Of a stretch of DNA of 64,000 nt, positions 11,156 through 64,000 are shown one piece after another. This DNA is from Roseovarius atlanticus (GTDB taxonomy: Bacteria > Pseudomonadota > Alphaproteobacteria > Rhodobacterales > Rhodobacteraceae). The DNA lies in contig NZ_LAXJ01000008.1 of assembly GCF_001441615.1 (NCBI RefSeq), positions 62,001-126,000 on the forward strand, in the 5' to 3' direction. The position numbers were made by a program, and so were the translations under genes. The notes under the pieces are model-generated. The model was given only the letters and a program-made list of their open reading frames with translations, was not told where the DNA came from and did not search any database. Position 1 is the first letter of the stretch; each line of letters starts with the position of its first letter.

Positions 11156-11359
11156 ATGTCCGCACCCGAAACAAATTTGGAACGTCAAAAGAAACGCCAC
11201 ATCGGTCCCCTTGGCGGGATGCTGCTGGTTGTAGCTTTCGCGGCGATCCTTTTCGGCGTGTTCTACATTCTGGCCACAGACGGTGAGGAAACCGGCAATG
11301 GCGTGCAGGCGCCTGCAGCAAGCACAGAGACATCTGCCGGTTCCGACACCAGCAACTAG
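11156..11359 (+). CDS. Small single-pass membrane protein of the stress island
   Basis: This 67-residue protein has a basic N-terminus (LERQKKRHIGP), one transmembrane helix (about residues 20-40, GGMLLVVAFAAILFGVFYIL) and an acidic Ser/Thr/Ala tail. An AAGGAGA ribosome binding site precedes the ATG. A perfect EcfG-type promoter lies directly upstream. I do not recognise a named family; the charge pattern predicts the tail outside the cytoplasm. Confidence 0.8.
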   Translation: MSAPETNLERQKKRHIGPLGGMLLVVAFAAILFGVFYILATDGEETGNGVQAPAASTETSAGSDTSN

Positions 11360-11362
11360 GCG

Positions 11363-11512
11363 ATGCAGACAGGAACTGCGGCAGACATATTCGTGCCCGC
11401 GCTGTTTATCGCCGCGAACGTGGCAATCCTTTGCTTCGCGGTTTACGTGAAGCGGCAAGATCATAGGCGTGACCGCTCGACCATCGAGCCGGACGCCGCG
11501 AGAAAGCGCTGA
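11363..11512 (+). CDS. Putative 49-residue membrane microprotein
   Basis: An ATG three bases after the previous stop opens a 49-codon frame. It encodes one hydrophobic helix (residues 9-29, IFVPALFIAANVAILCFAVY) and a strongly basic tail (KRQDHRRDRS). There is no convincing separate ribosome binding site, so it would rely on coupling to the upstream gene. It ends before a clear terminator, consistent with a two-gene EcfG-driven transcript. No homologous family is recognised and the call rests on position and composition. Confidence 0.5.
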   Translation: MQTGTAADIFVPALFIAANVAILCFAVYVKRQDHRRDRSTIEPDAARKR

Positions 11513-11556
11513 CGGCATCCCCCGTCCCCTGTCAGCGCGGCGCGTAACGCGCGCCC

Positions 11557-11596
11557 AGCACCGCAGCCCGTCCCAGGCTGCGGTGCTTAACTTTTT
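11557..11596 (+). terminator. Intrinsic terminator after the small membrane protein pair
   Basis: A perfect 12-bp stem (AGCACCGCAGCC / GGCTGCGGTGCT) with a 7-nt loop is followed by TAACTTTTT. The next EcfG-type promoter begins two bases later. Confidence 0.85.
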
Positions 11597-11597
11597 G

Positions 11598-11622
11598 GGA
11601 ACCGTCAGAGATTTCAGGCGTT
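11598..11622 (+). promoter_or_regulatory. EcfG-type promoter of the 97-residue secreted protein gene
   Basis: GGAAC (11598-11602), a 16-nt spacer and CGTTTA (CGTT at 11619-11622) match the EcfG consensus exactly. It sits immediately behind the preceding terminator, 33 bases before the start codon. Confidence 0.88.
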
Positions 11623-11654
11623 TACAGGGTGAACCTGATGAAAGGGGAGTAACG

Positions 11655-11948
11655 ATGAAACGCTTTGCACTTGTCCTTCTGATCGCCGCGGCACCGGTGG
11701 CCGCGACCGCCGCACCCTTGGCCGAAGACCTGAAAAATTACGTGGTCGCGGTGGACATGGATGCTTTGGACACCGAGGCTCGTTCCGAGCTTCGGACCAT
11801 CATCGAAGACCCAAACAAAAGCCACGGAAACAAAGTGCTGAGCGTACATACCGTGTTGGACCGGAACGATGCCCTGCGCGACGTTGACATCCATGGTGGT
11901 CCGCTGGACGAAGGCGAGGCGAAGATCGGTCTTGCATCGTACAACTGA
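11655..11948 (+). CDS. Small exported protein of unknown function
   Basis: This 97-residue protein begins with a signal peptide (MKRFALVLLIAAAPVAATAAP). A hydrophilic, acidic mature part of about 75 residues follows, without cysteine. A GGGGAGT ribosome binding site supports the ATG at 11655; the frame extends upstream but without initiation signals. It has its own EcfG-type promoter and terminator, so it is a single-gene stress-induced unit. I recognise no family. Confidence 0.8.
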   Translation: MKRFALVLLIAAAPVAATAAPLAEDLKNYVVAVDMDALDTEARSELRTIIEDPNKSHGNKVLSVHTVLDRNDALRDVDIHGGPLDEGEAKIGLASYN

Positions 11949-11977
11949 CGCCGGCTCCAAAGGCTGTGAATATTCAG

Positions 11978-12011
11978 ATGCGCGTGCCCATCCCTGGACA
12001 CGCGCATTTTT
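11978..12011 (+). terminator. Intrinsic terminator after the exported protein gene
   Basis: A 9-bp stem (ATGCGCGTG / CACGCGCAT) with a 12-nt loop is followed by a run of five T, 30 bases beyond the stop codon. It separates this gene from the convergent FNT gene. Confidence 0.8.
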
Positions 12012-12024
12012 GTTTGTGCCCGCG

Positions 12025-12858
12025 TCAGCGTGGCTCGTCGACCTCGGGCATGACCTGAGCGTAGGTCAGGACGGTAAAGATCATCGTTCCGCCGACGACA
12101 TTGCCCAGAAGGACGGGGAGGAAGAACCCTGTGACGGCCGGGGCGGCCGAGAGCTGGCCCTGGACCATGAGGTAGGCCATCTCGACCGAACCGGCGATCA
12201 CGTGGGTGAAATCGCCCAAGGCGATCAGCCAGGTGAAAAGCACGATCAACCCGATCTCGTTGCGCTTGGACGAGGGCAGCATCCAGACAATCGCCGCGAT
12301 CAGGACACCGGCGGGAATGCCGCGCATGAAGCCCTCGAGCGGCGGAAAGCTGGTGGCGTGTTCGCTGAGTTCGGTGAAGGCAGCGGTGACGTCATCCGAC
12401 AGGACGCCCCCATAGGCAAAGAAAGCGGCAACGATGAAGGCGCCGATGATGTTGGCCACCAACACCGCGCTCCACAGCCGGGCGGTGCGGCCTATGGTAC
12501 GGGTGCAGGGGTCGATCATCACGGGGACAACGGTTGTGATGGTGTTTTCGGTGAAGAGTTGCAGGCGCGCCATGATGACCAGCACGAAGCCCAGCGAATA
12601 GCCGAAATTCTCGACGATATAGGCCCAGTCCGCGTCGGGCAGGTGGGCGCGCAGCAACGCCTCGGTCAGGACCGAGAACGAGATCAGGAGGCCGGCGGCG
12701 ATGCCCGAGAACCACAGCGCGGTCATCGGACGCTCCAGCTCTTCCTCTCCGTTGCGGCGGATGGACTCGAAAATCAGGCGTGGTGACAGGGCTGCGGCCT
12801 CTTCGACGGCCTCTTTTTCTTTTTCCTGCTTGATCAGTTCGTTATCGGTCTTCGACAT
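12025..12858 (-). CDS. Formate/nitrite transporter (FNT) family channel
   Basis: The 277-residue protein has a charged N-terminal extension (about 45 residues) followed by six hydrophobic helices of the FNT fold, including QLFTENTITTVVPVM and a late GDFTHVIAGSVEMAYLM segment. The FNT family forms pentameric channels for small monovalent anions. The long N-terminus resembles the YfdC branch more than FocA. No EcfG box is visible in its own leader. The gene sits inside the stress island, and its substrate cannot be predicted. Confidence 0.88.
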   Translation of the reverse strand: MSKTDNELIKQEKEKEAVEEAAALSPRLIFESIRRNGEEELERPMTALWFSGIAAGLLISFSVLTEALLRAHLPDADWAYIVENFGYSLGFVLVIMARLQLFTENTITTVVPVMIDPCTRTIGRTARLWSAVLVANIIGAFIVAAFFAYGGVLSDDVTAAFTELSEHATSFPPLEGFMRGIPAGVLIAAIVWMLPSSKRNEIGLIVLFTWLIALGDFTHVIAGSVEMAYLMVQGQLSAAPAVTGFFLPVLLGNVVGGTMIFTVLTYAQVMPEVDEPR

Positions 12859-12917: not shown

Positions 12918-12942
12918 GGAACAAATAGGGCGGCGCGACGTT
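12918..12942 (+). promoter_or_regulatory. EcfG-type promoter of the DUF7218/DUF2945 gene pair
   Basis: GGAAC (12918-12922), a 16-nt spacer and CGTTTTATCCC (CGTT at 12939-12942) match the EcfG consensus exactly. It is 30 bases upstream of the ATG at 12973. Confidence 0.88.
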
Positions 12943-12972
12943 TTATCCCCAGCATAATTCGGAGAGACCGTC

Positions 12973-13236
12973 ATGGCTGAGTCGAACGAGTCGTCCATCA
13001 AGGACGAAGACACATACGAGGCGCTGCGCGACAAGGGCTACAGCAAATCCAAGGCCGCGCGGATCGCCAATGCGCAGGCGAATGACAACATGGCGCCCTC
13101 GAAGAAGGGCGGCAAGGCGCCGCCCTATGAGCAATGGTCGAAGGCCGAGCTGTATGACCAGGCGCAGAATGTCGGGATCGAAGGCCGGTCGGACATGACC
13201 AAGGATGAGTTGATCGACGCCCTGAGGCGCGACTGA
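12973..13236 (+). CDS. Small Rho_N/SAP-like protein (DUF7218-type)
   Basis: This 87-residue, highly charged protein has two short helical parts. The N-terminal one contains DTYEALRDKGYSKSKAARIA; the C-terminal one (about residues 52-86, ELYDQAQNVGIEGRSDMTKD) resembles the Rho termination factor N-terminal or SAP fold seen in small stress proteins. A GGAGAG motif precedes the start. It has a perfect EcfG-type promoter and ends one base before the next gene. Nucleic-acid binding is possible but unproven. Confidence 0.82.
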   Translation: MAESNESSIKDEDTYEALRDKGYSKSKAARIANAQANDNMAPSKKGGKAPPYEQWSKAELYDQAQNVGIEGRSDMTKDELIDALRRD

Positions 13237-13237
13237 G

Positions 13238-13450
13238 ATGGCGATCTCGAAGGGTGACACGGTCGAGTGGGACTGGGGCAACGGCACCGGTCAGGGTGAG
13301 GTCAAGAAGATCTACACCCTAAAGACCACGGTCAAGATCAAAGGATCGGAGATTACGCGGGACGCCGACGACGACTGCCCGGCGTACCTGATCGAACAGG
13401 AAGACGGCGACGAGGTGCTGAAAAGCGCCAGCGAAGTGCGCAAAGCCTGA
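13238..13450 (+). CDS. DUF2945 family protein (hypervirulence-associated Tudor-like)
   Basis: This 70-residue protein is a compact beta-rich module with the DUF2945 signature: GDTVEWDWGNGTGQGEV near the N-terminus, a central Lys-rich strand and AYLIEQEDGDEVLKSASEV near the end. The family occurs in stress and plasmid loci; its function is undetermined. It follows the previous gene by one base and must share its EcfG-type promoter. Confidence 0.88.
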   Translation: MAISKGDTVEWDWGNGTGQGEVKKIYTLKTTVKIKGSEITRDADDDCPAYLIEQEDGDEVLKSASEVRKA

Positions 13451-13498
13451 AACAAACGAGAGACTGACGCGTTAGACACGCAGTAAAGGAGAATAAAA

Positions 13499-13693
13499 AT
13501 GTTGGAAGTTGGTGGCCTTGGAGGCCTTATCGTTCTGGTCCTGGATATCTGGGCCTTGGTGAATATCATCGGGTCCAGCGCCTCGACCGGTAAGAAGGTG
13601 CTGTGGAGTTTGCTGGTGATCATCCTGCCGATTATCGGCTTCATCATCTGGCTGATCGCAGGACCGCGCAGTGCGACGGCAAGAAACGTATAA
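13499..13693 (+). CDS. PLDc_N-type small membrane protein
   Basis: This 64-residue protein has two hydrophobic helices separated by a short polar loop (SSASTGKKVLW). The second holds the IIGFIIWLIAGPRS signature of the phospholipase D/cardiolipin synthase N-terminal (PLDc_N) module, here without a catalytic domain. An AAAGGAG ribosome binding site lies 6-7 bases before the ATG. It follows the DUF2945 gene by 48 nt and ends in a strong hairpin, so it probably belongs to the same stress transcript. Confidence 0.82.
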   Translation: MLEVGGLGGLIVLVLDIWALVNIIGSSASTGKKVLWSLLVIILPIIGFIIWLIAGPRSATARNV

Positions 13694-13716
13694 GCCGTAG
13701 CCGCATGAAGATTTTC

Positions 13717-13744
13717 GGGGCGCACCCAGGACTGGGTGCGCCCC
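13717..13744 (+). terminator. Intrinsic terminator at the end of the stress island
   Basis: A 13-bp inverted repeat (GGGGCGCACCCAG / CTGGGTGCGCCCC) with a two-base centre is followed by ATTTGCGTTTT. It closes the run of three small plus-strand genes. Confidence 0.8.
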
Positions 13745-14085
13745 ATTTGCGTTTTGCGGGGTGGCGTGGCCGAGGATACGTCAATTCCTGATCGATTCAT
13801 TTGGGTATTGAGATTTGCCGCGATTCATGGGACATGCATCGCAAAGCGTTCCCAGCCGGGTCTGACCCGCGGCAAGGCCGACGCGAACATGGCACCGGCG
13901 CCGAGGGCCGGGGGATGGAGCGAAACGCGCTTGGCGGTTGCGGCACGGTCGTGGTGCTATTTTCCCCGAAACCTGGCTAATGTCGTGACCGCGAGGCGCC
14001 GGCCTTGCGAAGAATTGATTTGAACCATGCCTGCGGTCCGGTCAGCACGGACAGTAAGCGGCGCATGTGAAAAGGGAGACGCGAG
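13745..14085. other. Gene-free stretch before the TonB operon
   Basis: About 340 nt separate the stress island from the TonB operon. The open frames here lack codon bias and ribosome binding sites, and I see no RNA gene or strong repeat. It presumably holds the promoter of the operon starting at 14086. Confidence 0.4.
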
Positions 14086-14520
14086 ATGAAATGGATCGTG
14101 ACCGTTCTGGCGGCGGTGACCGTGGGGTTGGCCGGGGCGCAGGCCGCGTCGGCGCAGGAAGAAGAGTTGGGCGAGGCCGTGCTGATCGAGCTGAACGCGA
14201 CCAAGGCCAATGAGGGCGGCTGCACGCTGACCTTTTTGGTGATCAACGGACACCCGAGCCAGATCGACAAGGCGGTCTATGAAACCGTCCTGTTTGACAC
14301 CGGCGGCCAGGTGGACCGTCTGACCCTATTCGATTTCGGAACCTTGCCGCCGGGCCGCCCGCGGGTGCGCCAATTCACCGTGCCGGGCATGGCCTGTGAC
14401 GGGCTGGGCCAGGTATTGGTCAATGGGGCGCATACTTGCGAGGCGGCGGAGCTGCCGGAAAGTGCTTGCGAGACCGACCTTAAACTGGACACGCGCACGG
14501 ATATCGAGGTGACGGGATGA
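14086..14520 (+). CDS. Periplasmic protein leading the TonB/ExbBD operon
   Basis: The 144-residue protein has a signal peptide (MKWIVTVLAAVTVGLAGAQAASA) and a mature part of about 120 residues with several cysteines (GGCTLTFLV, GMACDGLG, HTCEAAELPESACETD) that could form disulfides. I recognise no named family. Its stop overlaps the ExbB start by four bases, so it is firmly part of the TonB-type operon. A periplasmic accessory role for the energy-transduction complex is likely (inference). Confidence 0.75.
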   Translation: MKWIVTVLAAVTVGLAGAQAASAQEEELGEAVLIELNATKANEGGCTLTFLVINGHPSQIDKAVYETVLFDTGGQVDRLTLFDFGTLPPGRPRVRQFTVPGMACDGLGQVLVNGAHTCEAAELPESACETDLKLDTRTDIEVTG

Positions 14521-15170
14521 ACGCGATATTGCAAAGCCTGGGCCAGATCGCCGAACTGGGCGGCCCGGTCGTTCTGATCCTGCTGGCGGTGTCGGTGATC
14601 ACGCTGGCGACGATCCTTTACAAGCTGTGGCAATTCTCGGCGGCCGGTGTCGGGCGGCACAAGGCGCTGAAGGACGCGGTCGCGGCCTGGGACGCGGGCG
14701 ACCTTGCGGCGGCGCTGGCGGCGTTGAAGCAGTCGAAAAGCTATCTGGCGCCGGTGATCGAGATGGCGTTCTCGGCCCGGCCCGAGGACGCAAAGCGGCT
14801 GGAGGCGGAGGCGGAATCGCGTTTTGCCCGGCTGGAAGGCGGGTTTCGCCTGCTGGACAGCGTGGCGCAGCTGGCACCGCTTCTGGGTCTCTTTGGCACG
14901 GTGCTGGGCATGATCGAGGCGTTCCAGTCCTTGCAGGAGGCCGGATCGCAGGTCGATCCGTCGCTTCTGGCGGGCGGCATCTGGGTGGCGCTGCTGACGA
15001 CCGCCGTGGGGCTGGCCGTGGCGATGCCGACCTCGATGGTGCTGAGCTGGTTCGAGGGTCGAATGGACGGCGAACGGGTGACGGCGGAGCGTGCGATTTC
15101 CACGGTCCTGCATCCGCAGGGCCGGGCCGGACATGCCGCCGAATTCGAGGCGGAGCCGAGCCGTGCGTAA
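14517..15170 (+). CDS. MotA/TolQ/ExbB proton channel family protein
   Basis: The 217-residue protein has an N-terminal membrane helix (PVVLILLAVSVITLATILY), a cytoplasmic loop and two later helices. The later part includes LLDSVAQLAPLLGLFGTVLGMIEAF and VALLTTAVGLAVAMPTSMVL, the classic ExbB/TolQ signature. With ExbD it converts proton motive force into motion of TonB. It overlaps the preceding gene by four bases and the following exbD-like gene by eight. Confidence 0.93.
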   Translation: MNAILQSLGQIAELGGPVVLILLAVSVITLATILYKLWQFSAAGVGRHKALKDAVAAWDAGDLAAALAALKQSKSYLAPVIEMAFSARPEDAKRLEAEAESRFARLEGGFRLLDSVAQLAPLLGLFGTVLGMIEAFQSLQEAGSQVDPSLLAGGIWVALLTTAVGLAVAMPTSMVLSWFEGRMDGERVTAERAISTVLHPQGRAGHAAEFEAEPSRA

Positions 15171-29170: not shown

Positions 29171-29824
29171 ATGACCGACTTCGCCGTGCGCCGGACCATG
29201 ATGGTCGACACCCAGGTGCGCCCCTCCGATGTCACCAAGTTTCCGATCATCGACGCCATGCTGTCGGTCGCGCGCGAGGCTTTCGTACCGCGCCACCTGC
29301 GCGAGGCGGCCTATGTCGGAGAGAATGTCGACCTTGGCGGCGGACGTGTGGTGCTGGAGCCCAGAACACTGGCCAAGATGCTGGACGCGCTGGATATTCG
29401 GGCTGACGAGCTGGTGCTCGACCTGGGCTGCGGGCTGGGATACTCGTCGGCGGTCGCCGCCCGGATGGCCGAGGCCGTGGTCGCCGTCGAAGAGAATGAG
29501 GACATGGCTGAAGAGGCCCGCGGCATCCTGTCAGAGCAAGGTGCGGACAATGTCATCGTGCACGAAGGCCCGCTGGCCGAGGGCGCGGCGGAGCACGGCC
29601 CCTATGACGTGGTGATGCTGCAGGGCGCGGTCGAGCATCTGCCCGAGGCGATCACCGACCAGATCAAGGAAGGCGGACGCATCGCCTGCCTGTTCGCCGA
29701 GGGAGGGCTGGGCGCGATGCGTGTGGGGTACAAGATTGATGGCGAGATGAGCTGGAGATTCGCATTCAACGCGGGTGCGCCGGTTCTGGCCGGCTTCGAG
29801 CGGCACGCGGCGTTTACCCTATGA
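29171..29824 (+). CDS. Protein-L-isoaspartate O-methyltransferase family protein
   Basis: The 217-residue SAM-dependent methyltransferase has motif I in [18 protein letters not shown]. The upstream stretch ([15 protein letters not shown], then [14 protein letters not shown]) is typical of the Pcm family, with [13 protein letters not shown] further on. Family enzymes repair isoaspartyl residues. The alphaproteobacterial branch next to tolC is divergent, so true Pcm activity is not certain. The ATG at 29171 is preferred to 29126 for alignment of the family N-terminus. Its stop overlaps the TolC gene start. Confidence 0.85.
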
Positions 29825-31284
29825 TGGTACAGGAGCAAGCCGGACGCAAACCGGCACGCACAGCGGCGGCCACGCGGTTTACCGGGCTGAAGCATTGGGT
29901 GGCGGCGGGCCTTGTAGCGCTCGCGGGCATGACCGCGCTGCCGGGGGCCGCGAAGTCCGAGACGTTGGGTCAAACGCTGGCCTGGGCTTACGAGTACAGC
30001 GGCCTGCTGGAGCAGAACCGCGCGCTGTTGCGGGCGGCGGACGAGGATGTGGCGCAGGCGGTGGCCGGGCTGAGGCCGATCATCAACTGGACGGCCGACA
30101 TCACGCGGGATTTCGGCAAGGCGCGCGCCAATAACCTGATCAACACCAACCGCGATGTCACGTTCAGCACCGGTGTCACGCTGGAGCTGTTGCTGTTCGA
30201 TTTCGGCCAGACGCGGTTCCAGATCGACGCCGCCAAGGAAACGGTGCTGGCCACGCGCGAAGCTCTGCGCAGCATCGAGCAGCAGGTGTTGTTGCGGGCG
30301 GTGGCTGCCTTTTACGACGTGCAGCGCAACCGGCAATTCGTGTCGTTGCGCCAGAACAACCTGCGCCTGTTGCGCCAGGAATTGCGCGCCGCCCGGGACC
30401 GTTTCGAAGTGGGCGAAGTCACCCGGACCGATGTAGCCCAGGCCGAGGCGCGTGTGGCCAGCACCCAGGGGGAGCTTGCGCAGGCGCAAGGCAACCTGGC
30501 GCAGGCGATCGAGGAATACATCGCCGTGGTGGGCCGAGAGCCCGGGACCCTGCAATCTCCGCGCCAGCTGCCGAATCTGTCCGGCGGGATCGAAACCTCG
30601 AAGAACATCGCGGTGCGCAACCATCCCGACATCCTGGAGGCACAGCGCAGGGTGGCCGCGGCCGATCTGACGATCCTGGCCGCGGATGCCGCGATGAAAC
30701 CCAGGTTCACCGCCCAGGGCACGCTTGGGATCAGCGAAGAACTGGACACCAGCGATTATGGCCGGTCGGGCAGTTTCGGGCTGAACATGCGCGCGCCGAT
30801 CTATCAGGGCGGTTTGCTGAGCTCGGCCAAGCGCCAGGCGCAGGCACAGCGCGACGCGGCGCGGGGCAACCTTCACGTGGTGCGTCGTGCGGTCGTGCAG
30901 GACGTCGGCAACGCGTTTGCCATCCTGCAATCGGCGCGGGTGGTGCGCGAGGCCAGCCAAGAGCAGGTGCGGGCCGCGCAGGTGGCGTTTCGCGGCGTGC
31001 GCGAAGAGGCGACGCTGGGCGCGCGCACGACGCTGGACGTGCTGAACGCCGAGCAGGAATTGCTGGACGCGCGGAGTACTCTGATTTCCGCGGATGTCGA
31101 CGTGGCGATTGCGGCCTACCAGGTGCTTTCAGCCATCGGGCAGCTGACGGCGAAGGACTTGAACCTGAACGTCCAGACCTACGACCCGGCGGCCTATTAC
31201 AACCTGGTCAAGGATGCGCCGGTGCCGCTGAGTCGGCAGGGGCAGCAGCTGGACCGGGTTCTGAAATCGCTCGGGCGTCAGTGA
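29821..31284 (+). CDS. tolC: TolC family outer membrane efflux/secretion protein
   Basis: The 487-residue protein has an N-terminal export region (residues 1-46) and two homologous halves of long coiled helices. Typical TolC patterns appear in each: [20 protein letters not shown] in the first, and [21 protein letters not shown] and [20 protein letters not shown] in the second. TolC forms the outer membrane duct for type I secretion and efflux. It could serve the RTX and low-complexity secreted proteins near the right end. It overlaps the methyltransferase gene by four bases. Confidence 0.93.
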
Positions 31285-55701: not shown

Positions 55702-57138
55702 TCAGAACAGGAAGTCGTTCGCGTCCAGATCGGCGAGGCTGACATTGCACAGCAGGATGGATGTGCCGTCTCCGGTGTCGATCAGAACATCGCCGCCCGC
55801 CTGGGTCGCGGCGCCCGAGGACGCCGATCCAAGGTTCAGATCGGCGATGTCGGTGATCGCGGAGACCGCGGTCAGGTCGATCCGCTCGAAATCGTTGAGC
55901 GCGTCGAAATCCGCAATCGTGTCGGTGCCATGGCCGTCGGCAAAAACGAACGTGTCGGCGTTGAAATCGCCGAACATCAGGTCGTTGCCGGCCCCGCCAT
56001 CGACGCGGTCAAATCCGGCGCCGGCGCCGATCCGGTCATCGCCGCCACCGGCCTCGATCACATCGTTGCCGATCTGACCATAGAAGGTCGTTGCGTCGGC
56101 GCCGCCCTGAAGCGTGTCGTCGCCCGCGCCGCCGAACTGGCCGCCGAAACCGTCGAAATCCTGAAGCAGGTCGTCGCCGTCGCCGCCGAAAAGCCGGTCG
56201 AACCCCGCGCCTCCGATCAGCGTGTCGGCGCCGTCGCCGCCGAAGAGGTTATCGGCCTGTGCCCCACCATAGATCAGGTCGTTGCCGGCATTGCCCAACA
56301 AATTGTCAAAGCCAAGCTCGCCATGGATTTCGTCGTCGCCGTCGCCGCCCTCGACGCCGTCAACGGTGGCCCCAAAGTTGCTGCCCGCGCGGATCAGGTC
56401 GTTGCCGTCGCCGCCGAACAACCGGTCGGGTCCGTCGCCGCCAAGCAGGGTGTCATCGTTCAGCCCGCCATAGAGGATGTCGAAGCCGTCGCCACCCTCG
56501 AGGTGGTCGTCGCCGAAGCCGCCCCAAAGTTGGTCGGCGTTGGCACCGCCGATCAACGTATCGGCGCCGGAGCCGCCGTGGATCGTATCGAAGCCGGCGC
56601 CGCCTTCGAGGCTGTCATTGCCGCTTTCGCCGTCGAGGTCGTCGTTGCCCGCGCCGCCGCGCAGAGTGTCGTTGTCCGTGCCGCCGTGCAGGGTATCGTT
56701 GCCGCCGAACCCGTCGATCAGGTCGTTGCCGCCGTGGCCGGACACGGCATCACGGTCCTCGGTCAGGGTGAAGGTGTCGTCGCCCGACAGCAAGACGGTG
56801 AAGGCCTCCAGATCGCTGCGGCCTTCGAGGCGGCGCAGATCGTCTTCGGTGAAGCCGGGGGCGAAATCCAGCTGCACAAGCCGATTGTTCGCGCCGTCGA
56901 TGATCGACACGGAATAGACCGGATCGCCAGAGTAGGAATTGGAAGCCGTGAACGCCCCTTCGAAGAGCAGGATGGCAGCGTCGCGGCTTTGGTTGAAACT
57001 GGTGTTGCCGGCCACGTAAGTCGGCCCCGACGCGTCGCGGGCGAGAAGGCCCATGTACCAGAAGTTCTGGTCGCTGAGACTGAGAAGATCGACCCCGAGC
57101 GTGGAGCCGGGGCGGGGAAAACCTGTGACGTCGACCAT
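55702..57138 (-). CDS. RTX calcium-binding protein, probable type I secretion substrate
   Basis: The 478-residue acidic protein has an N-terminal domain of about 120 residues with no recognised family. Some fifteen Gly/Asp-rich nonapeptide repeats follow (GGNDLIDGFGGNDTLHGG; GGSGADTLIGGANADQLWGG), forming a calcium-binding parallel beta-roll. Its last residues (LADLDANDFLF) have the acidic-hydrophobic ending of type I secretion signals. The ATG at 57138 is the likely start. No ABC exporter is in the window; TolC at 29.8 kb could be the outer membrane part. Confidence 0.88.
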   Translation of the reverse strand: MVDVTGFPRPGSTLGVDLLSLSDQNFWYMGLLARDASGPTYVAGNTSFNQSRDAAILLFEGAFTASNSYSGDPVYSVSIIDGANNRLVQLDFAPGFTEDDLRRLEGRSDLEAFTVLLSGDDTFTLTEDRDAVSGHGGNDLIDGFGGNDTLHGGTDNDTLRGGAGNDDLDGESGNDSLEGGAGFDTIHGGSGADTLIGGANADQLWGGFGDDHLEGGDGFDILYGGLNDDTLLGGDGPDRLFGGDGNDLIRAGSNFGATVDGVEGGDGDDEIHGELGFDNLLGNAGNDLIYGGAQADNLFGGDGADTLIGGAGFDRLFGGDGDDLLQDFDGFGGQFGGAGDDTLQGGADATTFYGQIGNDVIEAGGGDDRIGAGAGFDRVDGGAGNDLMFGDFNADTFVFADGHGTDTIADFDALNDFERIDLTAVSAITDIADLNLGSASSGAATQAGGDVLIDTGDGTSILLCNVSLADLDANDFLF

Positions 57139-57354
57139 TGCAAGCACCGTATATTCACAATTTCGAGCGCGATACGGGGTACGCCCGAGAAGTGCAACCT
57201 TGGAGAAACGAAATGGGTGTTCTGCCTGCGGGCATGACGGGCCTCGTGCGAAGGGTTTGGCGGTGGGTGTGCGGAGGCTATTGCGTCCAGGGGCGAAACC
57301 CACTTAAGCAACGCAAGACGCGCCGCGCGCGCAGCGCCAACCGATGGAGACACG

Positions 57355-58611
57355 ATGATCCACGACACCCCGGGCCTGATCGAGGCCGTTCGCGACCGCT
57401 TTGCCCATGTGGACCGCTGCCCGTTCCAGGGCGAGCGGATTTTCTTTGAAAACGCGGGCGGGGCGCTGACGCTGAAAAAGGTGGTGGAGACGTCGGGGTT
57501 CTATGCCGCGATCCCGGACAATCCTGGCCGTGCGAACCCGGCGGGGCAGGGCATCCAGGACGTGATCGACCGGGCCAAGGCGGATCTGGCGGTGTTCATG
57601 AATGCCTCGACGGGGCAGTTCTTTGCCGGGGAAAGCGGGACCGAGCTGCTGTTTCGGATGATCCGCACGGCCTGCGTGAACGCGCCCGAGGGGGCCAAGG
57701 TGATCGGGTCGTCGATCGAGCACCCCGCCTCGCGCAGCGCCGCGCGGCGCTGGGCCGAGGTGGCGGGGCTTCGTTATGTCGAGGTGCCGCATGACGACGC
57801 GACGGGCATGGTGACGGCAGAGGCCTATGCCGAACGCATGACGCCCGACGTCGCGGTGGCCACGATCGTCCATGCGTCGCCGGTTACAGGGATGGGGATG
57901 GAGGTGGCGGCGATTTCGGCTGCGATAAGGGCGGTGGCGCCGGAGGCGGTGATCATCGTCGACGGGATACAGCACGCGGCGCACGGGCAGCTGGACCTCG
58001 ACAGCTACGGCGTCGATGGCTATTCGATTTCACCCTACAAGGTGTTTTCGCGCCACGGCTTCGGGATCGGGTGGATTTCGGACCGGCTGAGCCGGATGCC
58101 GCATGAGAGGCTGATCGGGTCGCCCGAGGACGCGTGGGAGATGGGTACGCGCGATGCGGGGTCCTATGCCACCGTGTCGGACGTGGTGGCCTATTTCGAC
58201 TGGCTGGGCGGCGAGGTGTCGGACGAGACCGACCGCCGCCGCCGGATCGAGGCGGCGGGGCGGGCCATTCGCGCCTACGAGACGCATCTGACGGACGCGA
58301 TGATCAACGGCACCGGCAACCTGCCCGGGCTGCGCGACATGGATCACGTGAGCATCCTGGGCGGGGCCGACAACCCGGCGCGCGAGGGGCTGGTTTCGGT
58401 GGTGGTCTCGGGCGTGCCGTCGGCCGAGGTGGTCGAGCGGCTGAACGCGCAAGGCATCCGCACGCATATCCGCAAGGACGACCATTACAGCGGAAACGTT
58501 CTGAAACCGCTGGGGCTGAGCGATTGCATCCGCATCTCGATGTGCCACTACAATACCGAGGCCGAGGTGACGCGGCTGCTGACGGCGCTGCGCGAGATGG
58601 GCGAGGGCTAA
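57355..58611 (+). CDS. Class V PLP enzyme (cysteine desulfurase-like)
   Basis: The 418-residue protein has ERIFFENAGGALTLKKVVE at the start, SGTELLFRMIRTA, HASPVTGMGMEVAAI, the cofactor Asp in VIIVDGIQHAAHGQLDLD and the PLP lysine in YSISPYKVFSRHGFGIGW. This is the NifS/CsdA fold. No obvious catalytic cysteine loop of IscS type is seen, so desulfurase, lyase or kynureninase-like activity are all possible. GGAGA precedes the ATG. Its stop codon interlocks with that of the convergent gene. Confidence 0.87.
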   Translation: MIHDTPGLIEAVRDRFAHVDRCPFQGERIFFENAGGALTLKKVVETSGFYAAIPDNPGRANPAGQGIQDVIDRAKADLAVFMNASTGQFFAGESGTELLFRMIRTACVNAPEGAKVIGSSIEHPASRSAARRWAEVAGLRYVEVPHDDATGMVTAEAYAERMTPDVAVATIVHASPVTGMGMEVAAISAAIRAVAPEAVIIVDGIQHAAHGQLDLDSYGVDGYSISPYKVFSRHGFGIGWISDRLSRMPHERLIGSPEDAWEMGTRDAGSYATVSDVVAYFDWLGGEVSDETDRRRRIEAAGRAIRAYETHLTDAMINGTGNLPGLRDMDHVSILGGADNPAREGLVSVVVSGVPSAEVVERLNAQGIRTHIRKDDHYSGNVLKPLGLSDCIRISMCHYNTEAEVTRLLTALREMGEG

Positions 58612-59129
58612 AGCGGGTAGCCGAAGGTCGCGACGGTCTGCCAGATGTCGAGGTTGAGTTGCCGCAGGCGCGCGATCGAGGCGTCGATCCGCGCGACCTC
58701 CTGTGCGTCCGCGACTTCCTGCTTGCCAACGAGGATGCGGTCCTTGCGGTCGGCGATGCGCATCATGATCGTGTTGAGCGGCCCGCCATCGGGGCTGAAG
58801 GAATAGATGCAGTGGTTGAACTTGTTGCGCAAGGTGGCCTCCTTGCGGAACCGCGCGGTCAGCGACAGCACCGCGTCGCGCTGGTCGGCCGGTGTATGGG
58901 CGAGCTTGGCCAGCCGGTCGACAAGATCGAGCCGGGCGCTGGTGGTGTTGAGGGTCAGGAAGATGACCATCGCCACGTCCTTGTCGGTGTCGGCCAGCCC
59001 GGCGATCAGGTGGATCAACAGGCTCTCGGTGTTTGTCCAGTTGAAATTGAGCTGACCGACCCGCAGGAACATGTCGCGCAGCGCCTCTTCATGCGCGGGC
59101 TGCGCCGGTTCAGAGCCTTGACGTGGCAT
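58608..59129 (-). CDS. Conserved helical protein of unknown function, coupled to a LuxR-type regulator
   Basis: The 173-residue soluble protein is mainly helical with an acidic N-terminus. It contains the stretch QLNFNWTNTESLLIHLIAGL and later KFNHCIYSFSPDGGPL. I recognise no named domain. Its start lies 20 bases inside the end of the LuxR-type gene, so the two are probably translated together. Convergent stops overlap by four bases with the class V PLP gene. Confidence 0.75.
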   Translation of the reverse strand: MPRQGSEPAQPAHEEALRDMFLRVGQLNFNWTNTESLLIHLIAGLADTDKDVAMVIFLTLNTTSARLDLVDRLAKLAHTPADQRDAVLSLTARFRKEATLRNKFNHCIYSFSPDGGPLNTIMMRIADRKDRILVGKQEVADAQEVARIDASIARLRQLNLDIWQTVATFGYPL

Positions 59130-59868
59130 AGAGCATCGCCGCCTCGGTGCGGTTGTGGACGCCCAGCTTGGAGATGATGTGGTGAATGTGCAGCTTGACG
59201 GTGTTTTCCGACAAGCCCAGCTGGGCCGCGATCACCTTGTTCTGGCGCCCGCGCGCGACGTGTTCGAGCACCTCGATCTCGCGGACTGTCAGCCGATCCA
59301 GCGCGGAAGCGGCCACGCGGTTGCCGGGCTTTGCCGGCGTCATGTCTTCGCGGCCTCCGGCGTGGTTGGGTGGGTCGGTCGCCGTCAGCGTCGCCGACGT
59401 CAGCAGTTCGGGCGTCACGTAGGAGTGCCCCGAAAGGCAAAGCTTGAGCATCGAGATCCACGAGTCGAAGTTCAAGTGTACCGGAAAGAAGCTGGAGACG
59501 ACAGTGGGATAGAGCGGGCTGGTGATCAGCGACCTGCTTTTGTCCGGGTCGCCGTAGGCGCAGGCGATCTTTGCGCTGGATTGATTGCAGACCCAGGTCG
59601 CCAGATGTTCATCCAGCTTTTTCGCCGCACATTGATCGAGAATGACGAGGCAGAGACGGTCGCGCCAGGACGGCAGCATCTCGACAAGCTGGTCCACGGA
59701 GTCGAAACGTTTCACGACGGTCCTGTCGATCTCGGCTTCGGTGACCCGACAGAGCCTTTCGGAAAAGCTCTGATTGGCGGAAACCAATGCGATTACAGAA
59801 TGTGTTTTGCGTTCCAATTTTAAGAACTCTTTCGCGCGTACTTCGCGCGGCTCAGAAAAGTGCTGCAT
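59110..59868 (-). CDS. LuxR family transcriptional regulator with degenerate receiver-like N-terminus
   Basis: The 252-residue protein has a C-terminal LuxR helix-turn-helix (about 190-250, LTVREIEVLEHVARGRQNKV, then LSENTVKLHIHHIISKLGVH). Its N-terminal domain of about 150 residues folds like a receiver (RLCLVILDQCA) without a clear phosphorylation pocket. A GGGGGGAG ribosome binding site precedes the ATG. It is divergent from the low-complexity protein gene across a 674-nt AT-rich region, which suggests it controls that gene. Confidence 0.9.
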   Translation of the reverse strand: MQHFSEPREVRAKEFLKLERKTHSVIALVSANQSFSERLCRVTEAEIDRTVVKRFDSVDQLVEMLPSWRDRLCLVILDQCAAKKLDEHLATWVCNQSSAKIACAYGDPDKSRSLITSPLYPTVVSSFFPVHLNFDSWISMLKLCLSGHSYVTPELLTSATLTATDPPNHAGGREDMTPAKPGNRVAASALDRLTVREIEVLEHVARGRQNKVIAAQLGLSENTVKLHIHHIISKLGVHNRTEAAMLYATSRL

Positions 59869-60542
59869 GACAATGCTCCCCCCAAGAAGTCGTCACATTA
59901 CGCACTGTTAGATCAAAATAATTTATCAAACAGTCAAAATGAAATTCAAAAGATGACGCATCATACCACCACTGAAGTGTTGGCACAAATTTTCCTGTAA
60001 ATCGGGTTCCGGCATATATCATTCGGTCTGTTTTCTGCCAAAAGTCTAGATCTTTCGGATTAAATCGCAGGTTGAAGAACTACTTCGATTGTCGTGCGTG
60101 CATTGGACTGAATAGCCGGAACGGGTCAGTCGGCTTCATCTCAAGAATTTGAAATAAAAAGATAAAATATAGACGCCATCCGGTTTACTCAAGATTAACG
60201 GGTGTTTTTGACGTCCGATTCGCGCGCATCTTCGGTCAGGCACGACATCGTGCTGTAAGGATCGGGGATCCAACTCTAGTCAACGGACAATGGTGCACAA
60301 GGCGCCCGCGTATGCGGGACCGCATCTGTCCCGTGCGTCATGACCGCGACCGGAGACCGCCCCCGAAGAAAGGACAGGGTGAGGACCGGAACTTTTTATA
60401 TCGCAGTAAACGGGACGTCCAAGACCGAGATTTCGTTGCGGGTTCCCGAAAATTTCAAACCAAAGACAAACCAATCGCATCCGTCTGCATGTCACTTGGT
60501 ATAGAGCGGTGACCATCGGATGCTCCATTCGGAGAAAGTCCA
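59869..60542. other. Long AT-rich intergenic region between the LuxR-type gene and the low-complexity gene
   Basis: This is the longest gene-free stretch in the window and is visibly richer in A and T than its surroundings, especially 59880-60240. No supported open frame was found. It probably carries divergent promoters and binding sites for the LuxR-type regulator. I see no exact EcfG-type promoter, and no large perfect dyad was noticed. Confidence 0.5.
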
Positions 60543-62126
60543 ATGAGTAAGAAAAACCAATACCTTTTCGGTCTTCAGGGCCAAGGCCAGCTTCAGGGCC
60601 AGGGTCAAGGCCAAGCTCAGGCGCAAGGCCAGGGCCAGGGCCAGGGTCAGGATCAGCACCAGTCAAGCCATAATGAGAACGTGAACCTCAGTGGCAACGG
60701 CAACCTGAACGGCAATGGCAACGGCAATGCCAATGGCAACCTGAACGGCAACGGCAATGCCAACGGCAACCACAACGGTAATGGCAACGCCAACGGGAAC
60801 GCCAACGGCAACGTGAACGGCAATGCCAACGGCAACGTCAACGCCAACGGCAACTACAATCACAATGATGCCACCAACACCGCGACGAACACGGCCACGA
60901 ACACAGCGACCAATGTCAGCACGACAGACGTCAATGTGAACGTGGATGTCGGGCTGGAAGGCCTGCCGTCAGACGATGATTTTGCTGATTTCGACCTGTC
61001 AGGTGGCAGCTCGACCGGTGATATCATGATGGCGACCAAGGGCGGTAGCGTTCATGCTGTTTATGGCGCCGGCAATGACATCGTTCTGAAAGACGTGCTG
61101 GAAGACGCGCTGAACGGCGCCGGCAACGACGCCGGGACCGTTCTGGCGCAATCGGCGTCGCTGACGGACAATGACACCGTTCACAACGCGCAGGTCCAGA
61201 ACAGCGGCAATTTCCAGCAGCAGGGCAGCGCGACAGGCGGGACGGCGACTGCCGATGAAGGCATCGAATCCCAGCCGACGGGGGGCACTGGCGGGTCCGG
61301 TGCGCTTTCGGCCGGCGGATGGGGCGGTGACGCCGCATCGCTTGGCGGGATCGCGGCAGCCGCGGGCGGCCAAGGCGGCCATGGCGGCATCGCGGCCTCC
61401 GGCGGTGGTGACGGCGCGGCCGGCCTTGGCGGTGGACTGGGTTCCATCGGCGTGGGCGTCGGTGTCGGCGGCGAGACCGGTAACGGCGGTGCTGGCGGTG
61501 ACGGCGGCAACGCGGCCTCTGGCGCGATCGGCGTGAATGACGCCGATGGCGGTGGTGCGGCTGGCCTTGGCGGCGGACTGGGCCTGGGTGGCCTTGGGCT
61601 GGTACCGGTCGGCCTGGGAGCCGGGATCGGCCTGGGGGCCGGCGGTGACGGCGGCGACGGCGGCAATGCCGGGTCCGGCGCGATCGGTGCCTCCGACGCG
61701 GATGGCGGCAACAGCGGCGGCGCGAACGCGCTGGGTGCCGGCATGAGCACCGGCCTGGGCCTTGGCCTGGGTGCCGGCGGCGACGGCGGCATGGCTGCGG
61801 CGCGCGCAGGTGGCGGCGGTGACGGCATGGGTGGCCAGGCCATGGGTGGTGCCGCAGGTGCCATCGGCGGCTATGGCGGCTCGGCCGGCAACGCCAACAA
61901 CGGCGACGGCGGCATGGCCGGACATGGCGGCCTCTGGGGCTCGAACAATGGCGATGACGGCTTTGTCAACGGCTTGAGCGAAGCCCAAGCGTCGGCGGTT
62001 GTCGATACCTCGGCGTTCAACCAGAGCATCGTTCAGGGTGCCAACATCCTGGGCAACACGGTCGACATGACCGTGGTCGGCGGCTCGCTGACCTCGACGC
62101 TGGTGGGCGAAGACGACACCGTCTGA
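60543..62126 (+). CDS. Low-complexity Gln/Gly, Asn/Gly and Gly-rich protein, putative exported matrix protein
   Basis: The 527-residue protein has a GGAGAAAG ribosome binding site. It runs through a short polar start, a Gln-Gly block (residues 10-40), an Asn-Gly block (44-107), a Thr-Asn-Ala block (109-124), a VNVNVDV segment, a mixed region and a long Gly-rich part (about 225-470). The non-repetitive C-terminus ends FNQSIVQGANILGNTVDMTV and GEDDTV. There is no cysteine or signal peptide. Composition suggests a disordered or amyloid-like polymer, with the acidic C-terminus a possible type I secretion signal. No known family is recognised. Confidence 0.75.
   Translation: MSKKNQYLFGLQGQGQLQGQGQGQAQAQGQGQGQGQDQHQSSHNENVNLSGNGNLNGNGNGNANGNLNGNGNANGNHNGNGNANGNANGNVNGNANGNVNANGNYNHNDATNTATNTATNTATNVSTTDVNVNVDVGLEGLPSDDDFADFDLSGGSSTGDIMMATKGGSVHAVYGAGNDIVLKDVLEDALNGAGNDAGTVLAQSASLTDNDTVHNAQVQNSGNFQQQGSATGGTATADEGIESQPTGGTGGSGALSAGGWGGDAASLGGIAAAAGGQGGHGGIAASGGGDGAAGLGGGLGSIGVGVGVGGETGNGGAGGDGGNAASGAIGVNDADGGGAAGLGGGLGLGGLGLVPVGLGAGIGLGAGGDGGDGGNAGSGAIGASDADGGNSGGANALGAGMSTGLGLGLGAGGDGGMAAARAGGGGDGMGGQAMGGAAGAIGGYGGSAGNANNGDGGMAGHGGLWGSNNGDDGFVNGLSEAQASAVVDTSAFNQSIVQGANILGNTVDMTVVGGSLTSTLVGEDDTV
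60577..60925 (+). repeat. Coding tandem hexanucleotide-type repeats (Gln-Gly, Asn-Gly, Thr-Asn-Ala blocks)
   Basis: Three successive imperfect tandem arrays encode the low-complexity blocks: units like GGCCAGGGTCAA near 60580-60655, AACGGCAATGGC near 60690-60860, and ACCAACACCGCG near 60873-60915. Synonymous variation among units indicates that the arrays are not very recent. Confidence 0.75.
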
Positions 62127-62151
62127 GGCCCCGGCCTTGCATTGAAAACGG

Positions 62152-62175
62152 CCTGCGCGGTGCGCATCGCGCAGG
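62152..62175 (+). terminator. Hairpin between the low-complexity gene and the repeat-protein gene
   Basis: An 8-bp stem (CCTGCGCG / CGCGCAGG) with an 8-nt loop is followed by TCATATTTT, 26 bases after the stop codon. It may be a partial terminator allowing limited read-through to the next gene at 62236. Confidence 0.6.
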
Positions 62176-62235
62176 TCATATTTTAAACCAGAAAAGTAGG
62201 TCTGGTCTTCGATCTCTGACGAGTAGGAAGAACAA

Positions 62236-64000
62236 ATGGCCTTTGATTTTACAACCGAAGCGATTGCCCATTTTATAGGGTCTTTCAACCAGATTATCGA
62301 ACAGGCCCGCCTGCGCACGGATCACGATCCGTTCGAGAACGCCGGACCGGCCTATGGTCCTGGAAACGGCCTGAATACGATCACCATCACGCTGTCGGCC
62401 CCGATGCAGCCGGTGGCTGTCGATGCCGGTATATCCTATCGTATTCAGCTGCTGCCGCTGCCCGAGCAATTCACGCCGGTGTCAGTTTACATGCAGACCG
62501 GGGTCGAAGCTGGCCTGCCCTATGTGGCGGGGGCGAGCGTCGTGGCGCCGCAATGGGTGCCGGGGGTGGCCCTCGGGGGGGCGCCGCAGCCTTACGTCGC
62601 GCCACCGCCGCCACCGCCGTCTTATGCAACGGTGGTCTATCAGCACAATCTGCTGGCCGATTCCGACCGGCTTTTGGGCGCGGATGCCGTGGTGGAACTG
62701 TCCGAGGAAGCGGCGGCCCTTGCGCTGGACTGGCTGGCGGGGGAGGGCGCCGCACTGGCCGGGCCGGATATTCCCGAGATTCCCGAAAGTGGCGCCGACA
62801 TCGCGGTGACGGGCCGCGAGGTGCACGAGAGCGTCAGCGCCTTTGTGCCGGGGGCGCCGAAGGAGGCCCAGGTGGCGACGCTGGTCGGAGAGGACGCCGC
62901 CGGGATCCACGTGGACGGAGAAGAGGGCGATGCGCTGCCCGATCTGACGGAGGTGCTGCCGGTTCTGCCCGAAGCGGAGGACGACACCGGACCGGCGCAT
63001 GACGTGATCACCGGCGGCAACACGGTGGTCAACGAAGGCTACATTTCGTTTTCGCTGGCAGAGGCGCCGGTGATCGCGGTGATGGGCGACAGCCTGTCGG
63101 TGGTCAGTATCAGCCAGACCAACGTGATCAGTGATCTTGATACGGTGAACGGAATGTTTCGGGGCGCGGGCGGCGCCGACAACATCGTCAGCAACGCCGC
63201 GTCATTCCTGACCGTCAGCACGGCGCCGGAAAGCGACGACACGGATGACGCGGCAGACGAGGAGGAGGACGCGCCGGTATTTCCGTGGATCGCATCGGTG
63301 ATGCGGATCGAGGGGGACGTGGTCAACTTCAACTACCTGCACCAGCAGAATCTGGTGACCGACGACGACATTGTGAGCACCGAACTGACCGCCTCGGAGA
63401 CCTTCATCCAAAGCGGCGGCAACCTGACGGTGAACGCCACAAGCCTGGTCGAGCTGAGCTATATCTACGATCTGATCGTGGTCGGTGGCGACATCGTGAA
63501 CGCCAGCATCGTCAACCAGATGAACGTGCTTTTGGACGACGATTTCATCACCTATCCCGAGGACGAGGCCTGGGACGTGACCGACAGCGGCAACGTGCTG
63601 TGGAACCAGGCCAGCATTCGTTCGATCGGCGCCGACACGTATCACGACATGTCGGACGGGTTCGCGGCGCTGGGCGACAGCCTTGCCGCCGGGTCGGACG
63701 CGGTGCCGGGCAGCATCCTGCGGCATGAGGCATTCGACGGGCAGGACGAGGTTCTGAGCGTGCTTTACATCGAGGGCGACCTGATAAGCCTTCAGGTCGT
63801 CGACCAGGTCAACATCCTGTCGGATGTCGATCAGGTGGACGTCAGCGCGCAGGGCGATGCGGCGGCAGCGATCACCGGGGCGAATGCGTTGATCAACATC
63901 GCGGCGATCTCGGAATTCGGTGTCGATTCCGAGATCCAGGTGGGCGGCGAGGTCTATTCCGACGCGCTGATGCACCAAGCCGGGCTGATCGTGCAAGAGG
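62236..64000 (+). CDS. Large acidic repeat protein, 3' end outside window
   Basis: The frame is open from ATG 62236 (AGGAAG ribosome binding site) to the right edge, at least 588 residues. There is no signal peptide; it starts MAFDFTTEAIAHFIGSFNQI and has a proline tract (YVAPPPPPPSY) near 125. A motif of the form Q-x-N-hydrophobic-x-x-D-x-D recurs at about residues 136 (QHNLLADSD), 294 (QTNVISDLD), 371 (QNLVTDDD), 428 (QMNVLLDDD) and 524 (QVNILSDVD). Each copy after the first follows a beta-strand such as GGDIVNASIVN. It suggests an extracellular beta-repeat protein acting with the preceding one. Confidence 0.75.
   Translation, partial: MAFDFTTEAIAHFIGSFNQIIEQARLRTDHDPFENAGPAYGPGNGLNTITITLSAPMQPVAVDAGISYRIQLLPLPEQFTPVSVYMQTGVEAGLPYVAGASVVAPQWVPGVALGGAPQPYVAPPPPPPSYATVVYQHNLLADSDRLLGADAVVELSEEAAALALDWLAGEGAALAGPDIPEIPESGADIAVTGREVHESVSAFVPGAPKEAQVATLVGEDAAGIHVDGEEGDALPDLTEVLPVLPEAEDDTGPAHDVITGGNTVVNEGYISFSLAEAPVIAVMGDSLSVVSISQTNVISDLDTVNGMFRGAGGADNIVSNAASFLTVSTAPESDDTDDAADEEEDAPVFPWIASVMRIEGDVVNFNYLHQQNLVTDDDIVSTELTASETFIQSGGNLTVNATSLVELSYIYDLIVVGGDIVNASIVNQMNVLLDDDFITYPEDEAWDVTDSGNVLWNQASIRSIGADTYHDMSDGFAALGDSLAAGSDAVPGSILRHEAFDGQDEVLSVLYIEGDLISLQVVDQVNILSDVDQVDVSAQGDAAAAITGANALINIAAISEFGVDSEIQVGGEVYSDALMHQAGLIVQE

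Follow-up and report, generated by a model that had tools for sequence, protein, structure and literature searches.

We describe here a six-gene cassette at the right edge of a 64,000-nucleotide stretch of the 4.58-Mb Roseovarius atlanticus genome (contig NZ_LAXJ01000008.1; G000:C72:62001-126000 in our numbering; hereafter "the window"), read beyond the window into the adjoining sequence. A gene for a LuxR-type regulator and a gene for a small protein, here called the partner, lie on the minus strand and diverge from four plus-strand genes that encode a low-complexity protein (LOWC), a repeat protein (REP), a PrtD-type ABC exporter, and an HlyD adaptor, and the LOWC leader holds a two-stem RNA element (Table 1). 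A preliminary description, made from the window's sequence alone, had a LuxR regulator and a coupled partner diverging across a long AT-rich region from a low-complexity gene and a repeat-protein gene, and these open reading frames (ORFs), together with the AT-rich region, lie where it placed them; the RNA element and the HEPN-like motif of the partner come in addition to it. We read the cassette as a probable regulated type I secretion system whose two candidate substrates, LOWC and REP, would assemble outside the cell.

Gene content, exporter, and distribution

Among the 47 distinct loci compared (48 less the duplicate L073; six from plasmids, and the window's locus counted in), 42 hold all six genes in the same order and orientation. 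The five exceptions are L035 and L092, which meet a record end and a contig end, respectively, L037, where LOWC was not found by the method used, L084, a distant locus where the LuxR gene was not found, and L039. The ABC and HlyD genes were both found in 45 of the 47; the other two loci are truncated, by a record end or a contig end. Flanking genes are not common between loci, with the widest flanking family present in 7 of 42 and the next in 4 of 42, and because the six genes are kept together while their flanks differ, we take the cassette to be these six. The second-widest family is an outer membrane efflux gene, with PF02321 in all four loci, and its position at the cassette flank fits an exporter. 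All six genes look to be under purifying selection, with ratios of nonsynonymous to synonymous substitution (dN/dS) of 0.05–0.22 across three close relatives, and REP is 83% identical to the window's in a Roseovarius confluentis record and 84% identical in one genome of the same genus.

The preliminary description had advised looking to the right for type I ABC exporter and HlyD genes, and both are present there, each scoring above its curated cut-off (TIGR01842 and TIGR01843, respectively). The features of PrtD-class type I secretion are present, i.e., a PrtD-type ABC protein, an adjacent HlyD-type adaptor, and a TolC channel in the genome. The TolC-type gene, unlinked to the cassette, is the sole one of three TIGR01844 matches in the genome to exceed the cut-off, and its product is a candidate third component of the exporter.

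Matches to REP were found in 26 of 295 genomes sampled across the family, 19 of 84 genomes of the genus, 2 of 385 genomes in a sample of the class, and 32 of 72,556 plasmid records (Ensifer, Paracoccus, Sulfitobacter, Sinorhizobium, and others). Among the 19 genus matches, that in G370 (expectation value, E, 6.6e-4) gained no support from its neighbourhood, and that in G311 is a divergent system, L127, described below. The partner profile matched 28 of the 295 family genomes, including all 26 with REP; in one of the two partner-only genomes (G277) the contig ends beside the partner, and the other (G077) gave a weak, partial match of 26.8 bits. In a sample of 398 genomes of the phylum, all 10 partner matches fell inside the class, and REP, ABC, and HlyD were present in five of the eight for which regions were fetched. 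By these profile matches, the cassette is scattered through the alphaproteobacteria; it is compact, its carriers are alphaproteobacteria of sea, soil, and roots, in some of which it might account for attachment to surfaces or for a matrix. Separately, REP and partner matches occur in two Sulfitobacter strains, on two different plasmid records in each (NZ_CP081132/NZ_CP081133 and NZ_CP084952/NZ_CP084953).

Table 1. Features of the cassette and of related genes; positions are those of the window unless a locus is named (aa, amino acids; HTH, helix-turn-helix)
Feature	Position	Strand	Basis or remark
Partner, 173 aa, HEPN-like	58608..59129	-	ORF; start inside LuxR gene, 20-base overlap
LuxR-type (NarL/FixJ-like) regulator, 252 aa	59110..59868	-	C-terminal GerE HTH, PF00196 71 bits
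AT-rich intergenic region, 674 bp	59869..60542	.	AT 0.52 vs 0.34 for the locus
Two-stem RNA element	60474..60535	+	Model R1 39.6 bits, covariation, outer-stem control, loop conservation
RNA element, outer stem	60477-60483 / 60517-60523	+	Pairing
RNA element, inner stem	60490-60495 / 60509-60514	+	Outermost pair not standard here
RNA element, loop; GGAG	60496-60508; 60531-60534	+	Conservation
LOWC, low-complexity Gly/Ala/Asn/Gln-rich acidic protein, 527 aa	60543..62126	+	ORF
LOWC C-terminal module, last 63 aa	61935..62123	+	Conserved while body varies
REP, acidic repeat protein, 641 aa	62236..64000 (ends 64161, beyond window)	+	ORF read on in genome
ABC, PrtD type, 682 aa	64194-66242 (beyond window)	+	TIGR01842 701.8 bits, cut-off 510.15
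HlyD, 448 aa	66268-67614 (beyond window)	+	TIGR01843 382.2 bits, cut-off 208.65
TolC-type outer membrane factor	29821..31284	+	TIGR01844 305.2 bits (cut-off 225.15; C72:91956-93185); PF02321 165.8 bits
Outer membrane efflux gene directly adjoining cassette	L062 4534-5907; L065 14333-15793; L089 3513-4964; L058 15159-16625		PF02321

LOWC and REP

The 527 residues of LOWC include 152 Gly, 70 Ala, 61 Asn, 35 Asp, and 28 Gln, with zero Cys and one Arg, and its dN/dS of 0.13–0.22 indicates purifying selection and hence a real gene. The preliminary description had stressed blocks of Gln-Gly, Asn-Gly, and Thr-Asn-Ala; TNTA is indeed enriched (3 occurrences vs 0.02 expected), but QG and NG pairs are not above what composition gives (131 and 526 of 2000 shuffles as high, respectively), and LOWC is unusual in its make-up and block arrangement, not in such pairs. 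Judged by hydropathy only and not by a signal-peptide program, the LOWC start holds no hydrophobic stretch (best 15-residue mean −0.44). The LOWC frames as called span 198 to 1632 aa in 46 distinct loci, some starts being over-long; what they have in common is composition, not sequence. While the body varies, the last ~60 residues are strongly conserved (W-G-S-x-N-G-D-D-G ... A-F-N-Q-x-I-V-x-G-A-N-V-L-G-N-x-V-D-M-T-V-V-G-G-S), with exceptions in L035, where the called frame ends differently, and in L039 and L084, which keep parts only. In the distant L039 (Sinorhizobium meliloti Ak57), the partner gene stands at the operon's far end and the called LOWC frame has only 198 aa and few repeats; judging from this locus, the length of the LOWC body seems dispensable. 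In a single genome (L054), two LOWC genes stand in tandem (11279-12745 and 12927-14606, minus strand), with the RNA element before each.

A chain of Gly, Ala, Asn, Asp, and Gln might also form, instead of a fibre, a secreted hydrogel or slime binding water or polysaccharide, with REP tying LOWC to an exopolysaccharide. Polysaccharide genes (GalE, UDP-glucuronate decarboxylase, glycosyltransferase, and glycosyl hydrolase) do adjoin the cassette on the two Sulfitobacter plasmids read, but since even the widest-shared flanking family reaches only 7 of 42 loci, such a polysaccharide partner is not a general feature. We regard this reading, which overlaps with the matrix form of the two-protein assembly proposed here, as possible without being probable.

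REP, of which the preliminary description had at least 588 residues, is 641 aa long in the genome, and the recurring Q-x-N-x-x-x-D-x-D motif that was reported for it occurs 5 times (residues 136, 294, 370, 428, and 524), against a mean of 0.0075 in 2000 REP shuffles, 0 of which reached 5. The protein is predicted to be mostly beta and comprises five related units (aa 246-316, 317-383, 384-440, 441-540, and 541-596), followed by a mostly conserved C-terminal tail, D-x-M-Q-T-x-L-A (DPMGGLLA in the window). Searches of profile libraries gave no credible family assignment for REP, LOWC, or the partner, and REP did not match an unrelated known family; such a match would, by the preliminary description, have told against its proposal. 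A sequence search for solved relatives of REP returned unrelated rows alone, with E of 0.024 or worse.

The LOWC C-terminus had been said to echo the REP motif; an echo is present, albeit weak, and it matches the other half of the repeat (G-x-N-x-x-x-N ... V-V-G-G). Aligned with the REP units (hhalign, local mode, 40 column-shuffled controls), the LOWC end scored 15.4–19.7 against units 1, 3, 4, and 5, above all 40 shuffles in each case, with a narrow margin for unit 4 (15.4 vs 15.1 in shuffles), and the three alignments printed (units 1, 3, and 5) run on G-x-N-x-x-x-N. Absolute probabilities are low (2–15%, and 0.1% for unit 2), and the REP stretch before the units scores somewhat above the LOWC end against some of them. 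On these alignments, the LOWC end weakly resembles half a REP repeat. The idea that LOWC and REP assemble together draws only indirect support from the weak profile match and from strict gene pairing, the LOWC-REP pair being conserved in the genome survey that the preliminary description had called for.

Alternatively, REP alone could be the surface adhesin of an ordinary type I adhesin system, in which LOWC would be an accessory spacer or secretion aid and no two-part polymer would form. REP holds the more folded repeats, and type I secreted low-complexity biofilm proteins exist in relatives, e.g., BapA (PMC5588039); yet REP has no adhesin, RTX, or Ig-like domain match, and LOWC precedes REP, is duplicated in L054 with an RNA element before each copy, and has a conserved end that weakly resembles REP. 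We consider such an adhesin system unlikely.

In the divergent sister system L127 (G311:C3:245000-264999), a 678-aa protein with many SGN/SDN motifs is followed by a REP-like protein (99.2 bits) and by ABC and HlyD. Its low-complexity protein carries the LOWC end (tail 28.3 bits vs 14.3 for the best of 500 shuffles), which a default search of the whole frame had missed. The partner was not found there, and nearby lie a response regulator that has a true receiver domain (PF00072) and a 613-aa protein resembling a sensor kinase on reading, with no Pfam match at E up to 0.001. This gene set suggests that the LOWC-REP-exporter core can go with other regulators, and L127 may define a second class.

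The LOWC leader and the LuxR-partner pair

The intergenic region between LuxR and LOWC has a median length of 661.5 bp (range 287–2561; 46 rows, one of them a duplicate). Among 44 such regions, no LuxR-type 5+5 palindrome was common to more than 3 (2–3 in shuffles), the top 8-mer occurred in 11 (7–10 in six shuffled sets), and the top gapped 4+4 word occurred in 14 (9 in three shuffled sets); it was this last word that pointed to the RNA element. The initial criterion for a site was a pair of complementary six-base arms, with no more than one mismatch, plus a loop word, and nine sites were added by eye.

Across 40 aligned leaders, the inner stem has 57 cells changed on both sides and 90% of its cells paired, and its covariation of 0.636 compares with 0.317 in shuffles (0 of 500 as high) and with at most 0.205 when one arm was slid, while its pair count and pair-type measures were reached by 17 and 14 of 500 shuffles, respectively. 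The outer stem, not used in picking, pairs better within its own locus (mean 15.72) than across loci (11.37; maximum 12.36 in 200 trials). In the model-fitted alignment, double changes occur at all 14 pairs (156 cells; 0 of 500 shuffles). Four loop columns are invariant (2.0 bits), the outer arms holding 0.07–0.77 bits, and sense-strand G-T pairs number 11 vs 2 A-C mismatches (one-sided p 0.011, relatedness ignored), an excess that points to RNA read from the LOWC strand.

Several points limit this evidence. Site picking favoured paired arms and inflated the share of paired inner-stem cells, a bias that touches the outer stem, the conserved loop, and the unpicked second copy in L054 less. In the model-fitted alignment, two non-leader hits included, only 58.1% of outer-stem cells are paired, and further pair types are not above shuffles (194 of 500). 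Nor does the window's leader stand out in stability (z −1.33, equalled by 22 of 200 shuffles).

Such picking by complementarity would equally collect DNA palindromes, and the inverted repeat sits between regulator and operon, where it could be a DNA operator for LuxR and not an RNA structure. The arms, however, change in pairs around a conserved spacer, whereas an operator would be expected to show the opposite; the 11-to-2 ratio of G-T pairs to A-C mismatches and the better pairing of a second, outer stem within than between loci argue the same way, and we hold an operator to be quite improbable.

The covariance model finds 41 leaders in 40 of 51 loci; 40 of them are its training set, and the 41st, outside it, precedes the second LOWC copy (L054:14578-14639, 29.1 bits). 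Two other hits, of 16.6 and 15.3 bits, are not leaders. The model gave no leader hit in 11 of the 51 loci (L037, L039, L040, L072, L084, L086, and L105–L109), and none near LOWC in L129; a pattern search located like hairpins in L072 and L086, in both of which the called frame starts too early and takes the hairpin in, and also in L106, and L105 holds a 12.9-bit candidate at the right place. The leader is the only strong hit in the window's genome (39.6 bits; next 20.9). In the family sample, 22 of 295 genomes matched, 21 of them cassette carriers, each a training genome, and five REP carriers were missed under the stricter filters applied there; the other hit (G218, 28.8 bits) lies inside a 411-aa same-strand ORF with no cassette gene found around it and was judged false. 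The genus scan matched 15 of 84 genomes, every one of which is a training genome and belongs to the 19 REP carriers. Because every scan hit but G218 comes from training genomes, the scans show specificity, not independent discovery. Rfam returned three matches (12.4–14.8 bits vs gathering scores of 35–55; E 4.5–7.2), two of which lie off the element and one on the opposite strand. By comparative evidence, then, the leader element is a conserved folded RNA with covarying stems and no Rfam counterpart. It would be a new structured RNA leader, strongly covarying and, in the scans done, associated with almost nothing but this operon, with a candidate protein partner at hand.

The N-terminal half of the LuxR protein gave no match to the receiver domain PF00072 at E up to 1. 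Its candidate acceptor Asp is present in 9 of the 12 rows listed, the window included, and is E, N, or Y in the other 3; two plasmid relatives are annotated as response regulators. Its PADLOC rows (CARF3 and CasR, best E 9.6e-8) cover the HTH part.

In the partner, R101, N102, H106, E35, W31, and N33 are invariant in 41 rows, and with plasmid members added (46 rows) R101 and H106 are still invariant and N102 nearly so. HEPN proteins are described as having an R-x4-6-H motif with a polar residue after the R (PMC3710099), and by its alignment the partner carries an invariant HEPN-type R-x4-H motif; its AlphaFold2 model (predicted local distance difference test score 89.6) is mostly helical with a small beta part. 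Other assignments were judged chance, namely flagellin (E 0.18 or worse), scattered Pfam rows (most commonly PF13556, seen in 7 of 46 members with E no better than 0.00059), four NCBIfam rows, each for a single member (lowest E 0.0003), and a PHROG of unknown function (E 0.0069). HEPN RNases are common in toxin-antitoxin and defence systems (PMC3710099), and the LuxR-partner pair could be a hitchhiking unit of this sort; but partner and REP co-occur almost perfectly, and the partner has no PADLOC match and zero matches in 50,697 phage records, making this origin very improbable.

Proposed assembly and known systems

From gene content and order, purifying selection, exporter identity, the repeats, the LOWC end, and the RNA element, all obtained by sequence comparison, we infer a regulated type I secretion cassette that exports LOWC and REP, which would assemble outside the cell as a coat, fibre, or biofilm matrix, and we give this reading a probability of roughly 60%. 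ABC, HlyD, and TolC would move both proteins out of the cell. LOWC, as a flexible acidic Gly/Asn/Gln chain whose length varies widely, would supply the bulk of the polymer, and REP, with its predicted beta structure, would be a scaffold, anchor, or nucleator on which the LOWC end could dock via the common half-repeat. Expression would pass two gates, the first set by the divergent LuxR-type regulator at the long intergenic region and the second at the mRNA level by the structured LOWC leader, plausibly bound by the HEPN-like partner.

A more far-reaching version, which we offer only tentatively and think rather doubtful, is that the cassette makes a new class of extracellular polymer, in which a type I exporter delivers a LOWC chain and a REP nucleator that have a docking half-repeat in common, while translation of the chain is set by a new cis-acting RNA switch read by a HEPN-fold riboregulator (or leader cutter). 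If true, a curli-like logic would have been built from entirely different parts, with a HEPN protein turned from RNase to riboregulator. MtlR, the mannitol operon repressor of the HEPN superfamily, is counted among the closest known systems.

In the curli system (csgDEFG/csgBAC), a LuxR-type regulator diverges across a long intergenic region from structural genes for a bulk and a second protein. The cassette resembles this arrangement, but its exporter is ABC/HlyD. None of its six genes matches a CsgG-type secretion channel, neither REP nor LOWC has a Pfam match to curlin repeats at E up to 1, and the LuxR protein scored 45.4 bits against the CsgD model (cut-off 250) over the HTH part only. 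Structural likeness to FapC and CsgA was below significance, and none of the six is a known Fap-type gene.

The nearest described analogue found is the BapA/BapBCD system, in which, again in an alphaproteobacterium, a type I exporter stands next to a secreted low-complexity protein that biofilm formation requires (PMC5588039). BapA of Paracoccus denitrificans has 2,211 residues and 891 Asp-Ala repeats, with adjoining exporter genes (PMC5588039). It is described as one Asp-Ala repeat protein with predicted calcium binding, and the word LuxR is absent from that text (PMC5588039), which sets apart the two candidate substrates, LuxR-partner pair, and RNA leader of the cassette. Type I secreted low-complexity surface proteins are thus a known kind. 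The cassette itself, with its two-protein design, LuxR-partner pair, and RNA leader, was not found described in the open-access literature searched.

RTX proteins (PF00353) are likewise acidic repeat proteins secreted by type I exporters, but neither REP nor LOWC matches RTX repeats at E up to 1. Such repeats do occur in a neighbour encoded 1.3 kb away (window 55702-57303, minus strand), a 533-aa protein of RTX type in which eleven HemolysinCabind stretches were matched and which is likely another type I substrate, outside the conserved cassette.

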